DNA of 64,000 nucleotides, from NCBI GenBank assembly GCA_025093555.1, contig JAIWNF010000019.1:186001-250000 (forward strand), in the 5' to 3' direction. Shown piece by piece: positions 47,656-54,357 of this stretch. Every line of letters begins with the position of its first letter. Position 1 is the first letter of the stretch. The notes beneath the pieces were generated by a model. The model had not been told where the DNA came from. It searched no databases and was given only the letters and a program-made list of their open reading frames with translations. The translations under genes and the position numbers were made by a program. The stretch is from Circinella umbellata (Eukaryota; Mucoromycota; Mucoromycetes; Mucorales; Lichtheimiaceae).

Positions 47656-50581
47656 TTAGATGTTCAAGAAAAGTTCAGTGTACTTGGGGAATGACCTATA
47701 AAAGAAAAAAGAAGTAAATTTAATATTTAATTTCGATTTACATATTCTTACTTATCGTTTCCAAAAGAATAAAAACTTACCAAAGTTTATCAGAAATGTT
47801 TCTTTCCAAGTAATCTGCGAGTTCACGAACAGCTTCCATAGCAGGAAGAACCTTTTCGCTAGCATAGAAAGCCAACTCACTTACATCCTCAATTTCAGTC
47901 CAATGATTAGCTAATTTTTCCAATTCTTGAACACGGTCTTGAAGGTTAGCAACAACAGGTGATAATTCTTTGATGACACGAGATTCAGCTGTAGCATCCA
48001 AACCAATAGTAACAATCTTGGAAGCAGTATCTGCCAATTCACCACGATAAGTATAAGCAGCAGGTAACACATGTTGAATGACCATAGTAAGCAAAGTTTG
48101 TGCTTCAATCATGACATCCTTGGCATATTTTTCCATCAAAATGTGATAACGGGAGGTCAATTCGGCATCAGAGAAAACACCTGTTTGACGCAACATATCA
48201 GCATTCTTATCCTTCAAAAGACACTTGAAAGCATCAGGACTCTTGACAATGTTAGGTAAACCACGCTTGGCTGCTTCAGCAACCCATTCATCCGAATAAT
48301 TATCACCTTCGAAACGAATAGGCTTGGTCTTTGTAATGTATTCACGAATAACAGCCAATTGATCTTCACGGGAAGCAACCTTTTTGTCACCCATTTGTTT
48401 ACGTAAAGCTTCCTTCATTTCGGTCAAAGAAGAAGCAACGGCAGAGTTGAGAAGAGTGACAGGGAATGAAGTAGATTGCTTGGAACCAACAGCACGGAAT
48501 TCAAATTTGTTGCCAGTGAAAGCAAATGGAGAAGTACGGTTACGATCAGTCAAATCACGAGCAATACTGGGAAGAGTGGCCACCTTAAGATCGAGAACAG
48601 TACCCTTGACACGAACGTTTTGCATTTGTGTACCAGTGGCACCATAATCGACAGGTCGGTTCTCTTCAATAGCATTAAGGACTTCATTCAGTTGACTACC
48701 CAAGAAGACGGAGATAATACCTGGGGGAGCTTCGTGAGCACCAAGACGATGATCATTGGATGCAGATGCAATACCGGCACGTAACAAATCGCCGTGATCG
48801 AGAACAGCCTTTAAAATGGCGACCAAGAAGAATAAGAAACGCAAGTTGTTTTCAGGAGCAGCTGAAGGATCCAAAAGGTTATCACCTTGATCAGTGGACA
48901 TACTCCAGTTACAATGTTTACCAGAACCATTGACACCACGGAAAGGCTTTTCGTGGAAAAGTACCTTAAGTTTGTGACGATGAGCAACACGGTGAAGGAC
49001 ATCCATGGTCAACAAATTGTGATCGACAGCTTGCATAGCTTCTTCAAAAATAGGAGCTACTTCAAATTGAGCAGGAGCGACTTCATTATGGCGAGTCTTG
49101 ATTGGTACACCGAGTTTGGCAAGTTCATGCTCACATTCACTGATAGCGGCCAAGACACGGGTGGGAATTTTACCGAAGTAATGATCTTCGAGTTGTTGAT
49201 GACGAGGAGGTAAACCACCAAGCAAAGTACGACCTGTGATCTTTAAATCGGGACGCAAAGTATATAAACCACGATCAATCAAGAAATATTCTTGTTCAGT
49301 ACCAAGGGTAGTAAAAACGTTCTTTGTGCGGGGATGATCTGTGCGTGTATATATATATATATATATTGTGAGTCATTATTGTATCTCCTCCCCCTCTTCA
49401 CATACATCTTTCCTTCCACATCCCTACCCCCTTAATTTTTTTTTGTCCATGCATCCTAAATTTTGTTTTTCATTGTTTATCCTTTTTTTATTTATTTTAC
49501 CTTCATCCACTTCTTCAATCATGGATAAGAATTCCAAAACAGTCTTGTTTAAAACTTCGGAAGATCTTAATAAAACACTCTTTTCATCTAAAGCTTCACC
49601 ATTATAAGAAATAAAGACAGAAGGAACGTATAAAATGGCGGTACCATGAGGACCATCTTGAATGAACATTGGGCTGAGATTGTAATTATAACAATATAAT
49701 AATAAAGTCAGCGCTATTTTTAGGATATATTGGGATATCATAATAAAAAATAGAAAAGCAGGAGGTGTACATAATATGCCTCGATCATTTCCCCTCCTCC
49801 TCCTCCTCCTCCGCTCCCCATATTTCTGTTTTTGTTACCTTTTAGTGTCCCACACAGTGTAACCGCGAGCTTCAAAGGTAGTACGCATACCACCCGATGG
49901 GAAAGAAGAAGCGTCAGGTTCAGATTGTAAAAGTTGAGAACCTGAGAATGTTTCAAGAGCTGTAACCTGTCAAAAATAAAAAAAAAAAACCAATTAAAAA
50001 AAATGATTTTAGCCATCCCTCACTTTTGTCTATACGAAATTATAATAAAAAAATAAACAACAATCAAAACAAACCTCTTCAAATCCATTATAGAAAGTGG
50101 ATTTTAAAGTTAAAAATGAATCATGTTTTTCAGCAGTAGAGTCTGTCATAGGTTGAAACCAATGGGTAAAATGACTAGCACCACGTTCAATAGCCCACAC
50201 TTTGACAGCATGAGCAATAGCATCAGCAGTAACCTTGTCTAAAGTTTGATTACCACGAAGTTGTTTCATAAAGCTCTTTTTTTTAAAAATATATATATAT
50301 AACAAACAACCGTTAATAAAACCATCTATCTTCTTTTCTTTTTGCCTTCCTTCCATCCCTGTAATTTCATTTCAACAACGATAAAAAAAAAAGTCTTCAA
50401 TGAGGTTTACCTTAAAGATGGGTTTTGGTAATGTACGTGACATCTCCTTCAATGAGAAAACATTGCTACCAAAAACTTCAGTAATGGTCTTTGCTTTACC
50501 ACTGTCGTCAGACAAATTAATGTTACGAGGTGCCTTTGTAAGACTTTCTACGACAGTATTAATACGTGCTTCGTGCGTCAT
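47656..50581 (-). CDS. Type III glutamine synthetase (GSIII), six exons
   Basis: Forms glutamine from glutamate, ammonia and ATP. Exons 50411-50581, 50075-50275, 49839-49966, 49501-49673, 47781-49338 and 47656-47695 give 756 aa in frame. Seen: [19 protein letters not shown], the [12 protein letters not shown] block, [19 protein letters not shown] (class III hallmark), the nucleotide/ammonia-site region [37 protein letters not shown], and [19 protein letters not shown]. The length is right for the GlnN/GSIII class (about 700-730), far longer than the ordinary fungal GSII (about 360). The final exon of 40 bp restores the ending [11 protein letters not shown]. Divergent from THI4. Most fungi use GSII, so GSIII is unusual here. 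Confidence 0.95.
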
Positions 50582-51174
50582 TTTTTCTCTAAAGTATAAA
50601 AAAAAAAAAGGAAACAAGAAGGAAAAATAGTAATTTTCGTTTGAACCGAAGAGATCAAATTTTAACGCGGTAGTTTAAAATTTTGAATTGTTTGGTTGTC
50701 AAAAAAATATTGAACCAATCCTATGAGATTTTAACCTATAAATTATAATGCTATTGCTGTTTAGCTGATGCGACTATATTTGATCTCCCCCCCCCAATAA
50801 AAAAACGCGTAAAATTCACTTCCCACACACATTAAATCATTATGATCAAAAATAAAGAAAAAATTAAAATGTATTACCCGATTATTATTACCTGGGTAAC
50901 CTTTTCAAACAATGCATGAATTATTCTTATAAGAGGAAATAGGTCATCTGAGATTTATGATAAGATATGATAACAGGTTGTTTAATATAAATGTTAACTT
51001 TTTTTTTTGGGGGGGGGAGAATTGTTTGAGACGCGGGTAACTTTTATGCCGTCACATCTTTTTTTGATGATGTTACTCTTTTCTTCATCTACAAAAAAAA
51101 GATATAAATACCACCCATTATTCGCAACCATTCTTTAACTATTCTCTTTAGCTTTTATCTCAAGAACAAAAACA
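50582..51174. promoter_or_regulatory. Shared divergent promoter of GSIII and THI4
   Basis: 593 bp between the two start codons. Seen: three GATA cores within 16 bp at 50959-50974, an ACGCGT at 50805-50810, GGGTAAC-type repeats near 50893 and 51045, and T- and G-runs near 51000-51018. GATA clusters fit nitrogen regulation of GSIII; this is inference. Confidence 0.5.
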
Positions 51175-52364
<1,190 letters not shown>

Positions 52365-52372
52365 AATTTGAG

Positions 52373-52552
52373 GTACGTGCTAATTGTTGATTATCGAGTT
52401 AAGAAAACTTTTATAAACAAACAAACAAAAAAAAACAAACAAATGTGATGGCTATCTATATTTTTGGTTTTCTATCTCGAAATCTTGCAATTGGCACTAG
52501 GGGTGCTTGTTTAATTGTAAAGAATATACATATTTTTCTTTATATTGTTCAG
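52373..52552 (+). promoter_or_regulatory. Candidate 3'-UTR intron of THI4
   Basis: A strong donor (GAG|GTACGT) lies 9 bases after the stop codon. A pyrimidine-rich acceptor (TTTATATTGTTCAG) lies at 52539-52552, inside the TPP aptamer just before its GCTGAGA motif. Splicing here would remove half the aptamer. Inferred, no transcript data. Confidence 0.5.
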
Positions 52553-52607
52553 GCTGAGAAATACCCTTAGAACTTGACTCTGGATAATACCAGCGAAAGG
52601 AAGTGTC
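52493..52607 (+). promoter_or_regulatory. TPP riboswitch aptamer in the THI4 3' UTR
   Basis: Contains the conserved elements in order: GGGGTGC (P2 5' side), an extended P3, GCTGAGAAATACCC, TTAGAAC, and CTGGATAATACCAGCGAAAGG. P1 forms between GGCACT (52493-52498) and AGTGTC (52602-52607). P4 shows a CTT/AAGG pairing where the usual consensus is CCT/AGGG, suggesting covariation. P5 is CTGG/CCAG. Orientation is sense to THI4 and no other gene lies downstream within 3 kb. Confidence 0.93.
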
Positions 52608-53583
52608 TTTTGCGTGTTTATTAACGCATTAAATTATTATAATTCATGGTTTCCCCCTTATTTTTTTTCTTCTTTTGTAATATTTTGATATGGAAATAAA
52701 CACGACCCTTACCTTTTCTTATAATTTTAAACGTACATAAATTTGTTGTTTACTTATTGGTTGGCTGGGGAAAAATAGATGAGATCTTGATTATTGTTCT
52801 TGAATTGACATGAAGTGAGTCAATTATAATGGATGGGTTATGTTGTACAAAGATAAAATTGTGAGATTTTTTTTTTCAAAGATATCAGTTTGATTGATAT
52901 CTCTATTACCCAAATCGGGTAGCTGAAATTTCAAGGGCTCCTTCTCTTATTCTTTATTATAAGTTCTTCATCCGCGGAAGGCAAATAGAAAAGTTATGTT
53001 CTATGACTCACTTTTTTTGTTTGCAAAAAAAAAAAAAAACATACTTTCCCTGTTCAAGCTAAATGGCTATTGCTAACATTACTTAGGGTCCTCCCCCCAT
53101 TTTTACTTTCGTGGGACCTCAAATTTGTCTCACCAAGAAAGTAAAAGACATGTTAAAGCACTTCATTCTTCTGTGGTCACTCACTGCCCTAGTAGTCAAA
53201 TAAAACAAATTAAGATGTATTTGACTGTTGATGGTTTTTTTTTGTTGAGGAATTTTTCAAGCTCGTTTAATTACGAGTTCTAAAGTTTTTTCAAGTTCTT
53301 TTATTTATTGCTGTTTTGGAAATTAAATAATTTGCAGTAGAAATTTGGTATCTACCTGAACTCATCACATGATTTATTGGCTTTCCACTTCATCTTAGTT
53401 GAAGGAATACGTAGGATATGAACTACGACGTAGGAGGCACATTCCTCTTGCTCAGTCAATGGAGAGAGACTTTGTGGATGAGGCATTTTAGTCTTTACAG
53501 GTTTGTGTAATATTACAAGTATGGAAGAGAGAAATACTACGTACATCTTGGAAGTCGAAGATGATGGTCACTTTATTTATTTG
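52608..53583. other. THI4 3' region and intergenic
   Basis: AT-rich; a (A)15 run near 53025; no ORF supported. Candidate poly(A) signals (AATAAA) occur at about 52694 downstream of the riboswitch. Confidence 0.4.
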
Positions 53584-54357
53584 CAGCGAGTATTCATTAA
53601 GCCGGTACTCGTTAAGCCGGTATTTCGTTAAACCGGTAGTATCTCTTAAATATTTTGTATATACTTAGTAAAATATCGGTGAGCTTTCTTAAATATTTAC
53701 CGGGTTTGTAATAGTATTATTTTATTTTATATAATACAATATAATACAATGTTAGTCTTTTTATTGATAAAATCATTGATACAGCCTTCCTTTAACGTCA
53801 TCTCAGCTTTCCCTTTGTTTCCATAACAATTAAAAATACACAAATCATTCTAGTCGTCAAGAGAAACCTTCTCAACGTCTTGTTGATAACAGTGTCTCTT
53901 CTTCGCCAACTTCACACAGATGCTTTTTTCTTCTTCGCCTCATCCGCGTACGTACGTACTTCTTTTCAACTTCGTCACGTACTTGCTCATTACCATTGAA
54001 TACTATATGTAATTATGTTGTTGATACACTCCATTTTTACTCATTTATTCAACTGCTAACCATGGTCCATATTTTAAACACACTTTGTTGTAAATTCATT
54101 ATTAATCCAGTCTCTGGTTAACTATCACTATTTTATGAATACACTATTATCATTTTTATCACTAAAACATTAGCTCATAGTAGCAAAGCTACATTAAGCA
54201 GTTAGCTACATTATATCAACTATCATTTTTTATCTTATCCGTACAGCTTAGTTATTTTTCCAGTATATTCTACATATTAGTACCAGTTGCGTTTCAATTC
54301 GCTAAACCGGTACAAATCCTCACATATATCGAGTACCGGTTTAACGAATACTCACTA
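53584..54357. mobile_element. ~774 bp TIR element with AACCGGTA subterminal repeats
   Basis: The left end CAGCGAGTATTCATTAAGCC and the inverted right end (54331-54357) match over about 26 bp with a few changes. Inside the left end the motif GTTAA(A/G)CCGGTA recurs three times in 45 bp; inside the right end an inverted AAACCGGTA pair also recurs (54304-54312, 54335-54343). No transposase. The terminal CAGYGAG is typical of Tc1/mariner MITEs. Ends are diverged, so it is older than the 965 bp elements. Confidence 0.7.

Follow-up and report, generated by a model that had tools for sequence, protein, structure and literature searches.

All three TPP aptamers found in Circinella umbellata lie 3' of their target genes, with a possible P1/anti-P1 switch beside a splice-donor-like site after the THI4 stop codon

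The 64-kb stretch of the Circinella umbellata genome analysed here (the window, to which coordinates refer unless stated otherwise) carries a gene for THI4, the thiamine thiazole synthase, whose coding sequence (51175..52364, + strand) comprises four exons separated by introns at 51363-51441, 51969-52060 and 52146-52246, as placed by the spliced translation, and ends in a stop codon at 52362-52364. At 305 aa, the protein agrees at 100% identity with a C. umbellata NCBI entry described as 'thiazole biosynthetic enzyme' (P0001) and matches the Pfam family Thi4 (PF01946) at 2.5e-108. A genome search found one full copy of THI4 in the assembly; an extra PF01946 match on C2 reaches 25.6 bits (26.7 with its neighbours, for a cut-off of 26.2) and covers profile positions 14-60 only. 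By eye, a TATA-like motif lies 72 nt 5' of the THI4 ATG, which suggests a short 5' UTR with scant space for a 5'-UTR intron. Divergent from THI4 is a glutamine synthetase gene (47777-50600, - strand), in which PF18318 and PF00120 are recognised within a 501-aa ORF at 47777-49282, and whose upstream exons and type III (GlnN) assignment were judged by eye. Between THI4 and the next gene, an element of ~770 bp (53585-54356) has 30-nt imperfect inverted ends (87% complementary) and at least 41 genome matches of at least 620 bp, of which one is itself and the remaining 40 are 78-84% identical to it; its copy number and inverted ends suggest membership of a family of non-autonomous DNA transposons. 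In public records, several fungal THI4 proteins are named 'triosephosphate isomerase', and NMT1/THI5 proteins 'glycylpeptide N-tetradecanoyltransferase', labels that look like propagated naming errors.

Downstream of the THI4 stop codon, the Rfam covariance model for the TPP riboswitch aptamer (RF00059) matches in full length at 52489..52618 (+ strand) with 65.9 bits (gathering threshold 54.3, E=1e-10), the sole gathering-level Rfam match in the 64-kb window. A sequence-only reading of this DNA had called a TPP aptamer here with its core elements in order, and the covariance model bears it out, with the CTGAGA core and the GCG pocket both in place. The same reading had set the aptamer in sense 3' of THI4, as it indeed lies; its distance of 128 bases from the stop holds for the start that it had chosen (52493), whereas the Rfam bounds give 124 nt. 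It had also proposed a P1 helix, which does form in the fold but had been drawn too short: in the pair list of the unconstrained fold, the extended P1 joins 52486..52498 to 52602..52614 (both + strand). The aptamer strand folds unaided into a three-way junction (z=-2.8), and 2 of 200 shuffles fold equally well. Within it, P3 (52500-52552) carries an AT-rich extension of ~40 nt, absent from the NMT1 aptamer described below, that ends in TTGTTCAG right before GCTGAGA; TTGTTCAG resembles a splice acceptor.

Across the 50.8-Mb assembly, the TPP model identifies at least three places, at THI4, at NMT1/THI5 and at a sugar transporter (PF00083), three being a lower bound because 49 of the 1159 first-pass candidates were scored. 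The pattern CTGAGA-N15-45-TAATRCCNGCG, built from the three aptamers themselves, likewise occurs three times in the assembly, at the same three loci, and its reversed-pattern control does not occur. At every locus the CTGAGA core and the GCG pocket stand in order, and a P1-P5 three-way junction forms in the unconstrained fold, THI4 having z -2.8 and an extended P1 of 11 pairs, NMT1 z -3.1 and 13 pairs, and the sugar transporter z -3.9 and 17 pairs. The NMT1 copy scores 62.2 bits, above gathering like that of THI4, and the sugar-transporter copy falls below it at 45.2 bits (E=1.9e-6 in a 9.4-kb search). Since the latter nevertheless folds well (z -3.9), generic models may miss this group of aptamers. 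Its P4 strands (L003 1501-1627, G000:C57) depart from the Rfam consensus yet remain complementary (GCG/CGC), and its J2-4 is divergent.

By genome position, all three aptamers lie 3' of the stop codon and in sense, that of NMT1 200 nt after the stop and that of the sugar transporter starting 44 nt after it. Neither the TPP model nor the pattern scan found an aptamer 5' of THI4, NMT1 or the sugar transporter, and the arrangement at these genes is therefore not the 5'-UTR-intron placement of fungal type I. The 347-aa NMT1/THI5 product is 100% identical to a C. umbellata NCBI entry (P0210), and the genome search found one full NMT1 gene in the assembly. A paralogue of the sugar transporter on C207 (83% identical) has neither CTGAGA nor TAATRCC over 1494 nt downstream of its stop. 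The next gene on the same strand encodes EF-Ts (PF00889, PF25025), ~2.7 kb beyond the NMT1 aptamer, and a WDR26-type LisH protein (PF23627), ~2.8 kb beyond the sugar-transporter aptamer. Before EF-Ts, a weak ribosomal L7Ae-like match (L004 6135-6398, + strand; 21.5 bits, cut-off 22.1) lies on the strand opposite to NMT1 and converges on it from its 3' side.

A further reading for THI4 assigns the aptamer to the 5' end of another transcript lying downstream. Pfam recognised no + strand gene in the 3.9 kb from the aptamer to window position 56.5 kb, where five of the + strand ORFs were tried; by eye, those at 55.4-56.5 kb resemble coding sequence, and they would be the candidates for such a transcript. 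The first of them, however, begins ~2.8-3 kb 3' of the aptamer, past the mobile element at 53585-54356, and the same 3' layout recurs at NMT1 and the sugar transporter, target classes that the accessible parts of the literature report for Mucoromycota. We consider a separate transcript very improbable. It is very likely, in our judgement, that THI4 carries a genuine TPP aptamer in its 3' untranslated part, one of three found, all 3' of their target genes. For relatives, Mucorales protein alignments served as queries: genome contigs searched with NMT1 gave 10 loci, all bacterial, and viral contigs searched with THI4, the sugar transporter and NMT1 gave no confirmed locus. No aptamer-encoded tail was seen among the tails of relatives' proteins that were inspected, and a motif scan of 329 proteins gave one match, judged unrelated.

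Riboswitches are mostly upstream devices. The sequence-only reading had placed known fungal TPP riboswitches mainly in 5'-UTR introns; types I-IV of this group occupy 5'-UTR introns, internal introns and single-exon 5' UTRs in the available text of PMC5882874, and the accessible part of PMC11683625 places the TPPsw-SUGAR group of Mucoromycota mostly in 5' UTRs, with Circinella absent from its main text. The C. umbellata loci resemble types I-IV (Neurospora NMT1/THI4 and relatives) in aptamer class, in their targets (NMT1, THI4, transporters) and in alternative pairing, here predicted, near a 5' splice site, but differ in that three of three aptamers lie 3' of the stop. With TPPsw-SUGAR the common feature is that a PF00083 sugar transporter of a Mucoromycota species has a TPP aptamer next to it, but the C. 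umbellata copy follows the transporter stop by 44 nt and none was found 5'. The available portions of PMC5882874 also conclude that both UTRs as well as introns harbour riboswitches, refer to one at NMT1 of a Mucor, and mention a 3'-UTR TPP riboswitch at eIF5B of Postia placenta, which energy minimisation could not validate according to its authors. The latter is the sole earlier fungal 3'-UTR case that we found in print; unlike THI4 and NMT1, eIF5B is not a thiamine gene. In the accessible text of the open-licence literature, our searches turned up no account of a 3' TPP riboswitch at a fungal thiamine gene.

Outside fungi and land plants, 3'-UTR TPP aptamers have been predicted in algae (PMC4260697) and found in diatoms (PMC9544697), in both cases at thiamine-related genes, as here. 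The diatom P2 lacks the AGGG acceptor sequence, whereas AGGG is present in P2 of the C. umbellata aptamers. According to the available text of PMC9544697, the diatom aptamers are conserved in sequence and show no thiamine response: the level, splicing and poly(A) site of PtTHIC are unchanged by thiamine. This counts against regulation at THI4, and it raises the reading that the C. umbellata aptamers, too, are conserved yet do not regulate. We regard such an outcome as improbable, because the core is kept at three loci, which comprise two thiamine-synthesis genes and one published target class, and because the strong stem predicted at THI4 (see below) would be hard to account for in the absence of a switching role.

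The intervals between stop codon and aptamer contain sequences reminiscent of splice sites. At THI4, a candidate 5' splice site, GAG/GTACGT (52373..52378, + strand), is separated from the stop by 8 nt before its GT; its donor score of 7.1 places it among the best 2.3% of the window's GTs and inside the range of 17 introns on which our splice models are built, seven of them from three gene models and ten script-predicted and partly doubtful. NMT1 has a donor-like AAT/GTAAGT 5 nt after its stop (score 7.5, top 1.8%), and with the same 17-intron donor model the sugar transporter shows no good donor near or after its stop. By our estimate, a donor of this quality is met about once in 800-1000 positions. 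Finding two within 10 bases of a stop codon among three genes is therefore unlikely by chance, a consideration that is post hoc. Further downstream at THI4 lies an AG-free stretch (52604..52776, + strand) between an AG at 52602 and another at 52777. The resulting gap of 175 nt is among the longest on the + strand of the window, where 5 of 3215 AG gaps, itself included, are as long or longer. An AATAAA hexamer resembling a poly(A) signal (52695..52700, + strand) falls inside a putative intron from 52373 to any of the candidate acceptors considered downstream, which are those at 52778 (score 3.7, below all 17 introns), at 52881 (7.5) and at 52963 (7.3), the last two lacking a branch-point match. 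That the putative acceptors are weak or far counts against a splicing model for THI4.

Acceptor-like sites also lie at the edges of the aptamers, and the effect of TPP could be of the opposite sign or act at the other junction, with the closed aptamer hiding an acceptor and blocking 3'-UTR splicing; the sites concerned would be an AG in the outer P1 pairs (NMT1, sugar transporter) or the CTAG/GGG of P2. In NMT1, an acceptor-like TTCACTTTATAG ends within P1 and scores 6.5, and favouring the aptamer raises its opening cost from 3.7 to 5.8 kcal/mol; at the sugar-transporter site the cost rises from 8.4 to 11.2. These changes are nevertheless small and were computed without a shuffled control, and the sugar-transporter site falls outside the acceptors above the 80th percentile and has no good partner donor. 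The AG of AGGG in P2 serves as an alternative acceptor in algae and plants, according to the available portion of PMC9544697, and at THI4 it is the first AG for 97 nt; its acceptor score there, however, is 3.3, below all 17 introns. On balance we think it unlikely that a hidden acceptor is the main mechanism.

A further structural signal at THI4 involves the donor-like site itself. In the folding model with aptamer pairs disfavoured, a switching stem forms between a 5' arm (52377..52409, + strand), made up of an anti-P1 segment at 52377-52387 and an upper stem at 52389-52409, and a 3' arm (52466..52497, + strand), whose portion 52487-52497 is also the 5' strand of P1, so that the two pairings are mutually exclusive. 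The anti-P1 segment forms 11 bp with 52487-52497, the stem runs on to 52409/52466, and the segment overlaps positions +5/+6 of the donor-like site. The stem came to our attention in a predicted fold, and the tests of it followed later. Its energy of -32.4 kcal/mol compares with shuffle means of -12.8 and -14.2 and was reached by none of 5000 shuffles of each arm, none of 3000 random 46-mers and none of 252 (111+141) GTRNGT sites of the same geometry. Among 12 anti-P1 tests over the three genes, p fell below 0.05 in only two, at 0.004 for THI4 upstream and at 0.026 for NMT1 downstream, and neither NMT1 nor the sugar transporter has an anti-P1 comparable to that of THI4. Other pairings were less telling. 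Plant-like pairing of P4/P5 to the donor is unconvincing (p=0.026 for THI4, where it falls off the donor, 0.42 for NMT1 and 0.50 for the sugar transporter), and no duplex was significant between the whole spacer and the whole aptamer (p 0.43, 0.27 and 0.87) or between the downstream 200 nt and the aptamer (p 0.91, 0.33 and 0.96). A mobile-element origin of the THI4 stem is ruled out: the stem region is single-copy in the genome, and no arm of it is therefore a transposon arm.

Taken alone, anti-P1 (-15.6) and P1 (-14.3) are near-isoenergetic. A ligand-free model of 52365-52640 puts anti-P1 at a probability of 0.97 and P1 at 0.00. Once P1 is given a bonus of -9 or -12 kcal/mol, its probability becomes 0.22 or 0.31 and that of anti-P1 0.81 or 0.75. 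Displacement is thus partial even at -12 kcal/mol, which speaks against the THI4 switching model. The modelled cost of opening the THI4 donor falls from 6.1 kcal/mol, when aptamer pairs are disfavoured, to 3.5 when they are favoured, and the donor ranks 13 of 145 windows for the effect of aptamer state, with windows just 3' of it the strongest. When 480 nt are folded, aptamer pairs average 0.52 without ligand, so the bistability of THI4 depends on the stretch folded. Within this crude thermodynamic model, THI4 is predicted to be a switch. For the NMT1 donor window, the model shows no response to aptamer state (rank 83 of 113), and the sugar transporter lacks a good donor; hence a single mechanism does not cover all three genes.

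To our knowledge, riboswitch control from a 3' UTR has been demonstrated in plant THIC only. There, TPP frees a 5' splice site in the 3' UTR, and splicing removes a proximal processing site (PMC10226581, in its available text). C. umbellata has several of the same components, namely a TPP aptamer in sense after the stop of a thiamine-synthesis gene and a donor-like site separating the two (at THI4 and NMT1, the sugar transporter having no good one), a poly(A)-like signal within the putative intron of THI4 and, by prediction and in THI4 only, ligand-free pairing over part of the donor. It differs in the genes concerned (THI4, NMT1 and a sugar transporter), in kingdom and in that the predicted THI4 masking helix uses a P1 strand, amounting to a P1 exchange. 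The likeness to plant THIC, which the sequence-only reading had raised, has become firmer, given that three of three aptamers lie 3' of genes and that donor-like sites follow the THI4 and NMT1 stops.

These features can be assembled into a P1/anti-P1 model for the THI4 donor. At low TPP, the segment after the stop would pair with the 5' strand of P1 and so make an anti-P1 hairpin over the end of the 5' splice site; the 3' UTR would stay unspliced, and the AATAAA at 52695 would be used to give a normal, stable THI4 mRNA. At high TPP, the aptamer would close P1, the anti-P1 helix would open and the 5' splice site would be freed, upon which splicing (or U1 binding) would remove or silence the AATAAA, leading to long unstable transcripts and less THI4. 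The direct grounds for this model are the aptamer, its position, the donor-like sequence, the significant anti-P1 complementarity and the position of AATAAA; from these we infer transcription through the region, splicing, the choice of acceptor, a response to the ligand and its direction. We give this mechanism a chance slightly short of even, and we propose it for THI4 only. The other two genes may instead rely on acceptors bordering P1 or on poly(A) control.

The position of the poly(A)-like signals also admits a working 3'-UTR riboswitch without any splicing, in which the folded aptamer with its long P1 would alter poly(A)-site choice, read-through or transcript stability and the donor-like sites would be incidental. 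The AATAAA of the sugar transporter begins 14 nt after the stop, 5' of the aptamer, and that of NMT1 begins 13 nt past the end of the Rfam match, so cleavage could occur at or beside the aptamer. An extended P1 in all three aptamers, the want of a good donor near the sugar-transporter stop and the 3'-UTR aptamers predicted in single-exon algal genes (PMC4260697, available text) are all in keeping with such an arrangement. On the other hand, the modelled opening energy of AATAAA is nearly constant across aptamer states at all three loci, and both the donor-like sites right after two stops and the strong anti-P1 stem over the THI4 donor would be left unexplained. Control without splicing therefore strikes us as a lesser possibility, though the most serious of the alternatives considered. 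The best overall explanation, a 3' aptamer combined with P1/anti-P1 switching at the THI4 donor, has in our estimation an even chance of being right. The wider proposition, that in Mucorales the whole TPP regulon has moved to 3' ends, where a plant-like switch arose independently and acts at THI4 through P1/anti-P1 exchange over a post-stop splice site, is more tentative still.

Two points are new here: each of the three aptamers found lies 3' of its gene, and the predicted anti-P1 overlaps the donor-like site at THI4. The THI4 locus offers an explicit, testable switch, consisting of the swap of one short helix beside a donor-like site. A fungus whose detected TPP aptamers all lie 3' of genes would suggest that 3'-end control by these riboswitches evolved more than once and that the 5'-UTR assignments published for Mucoromycota call for checking.
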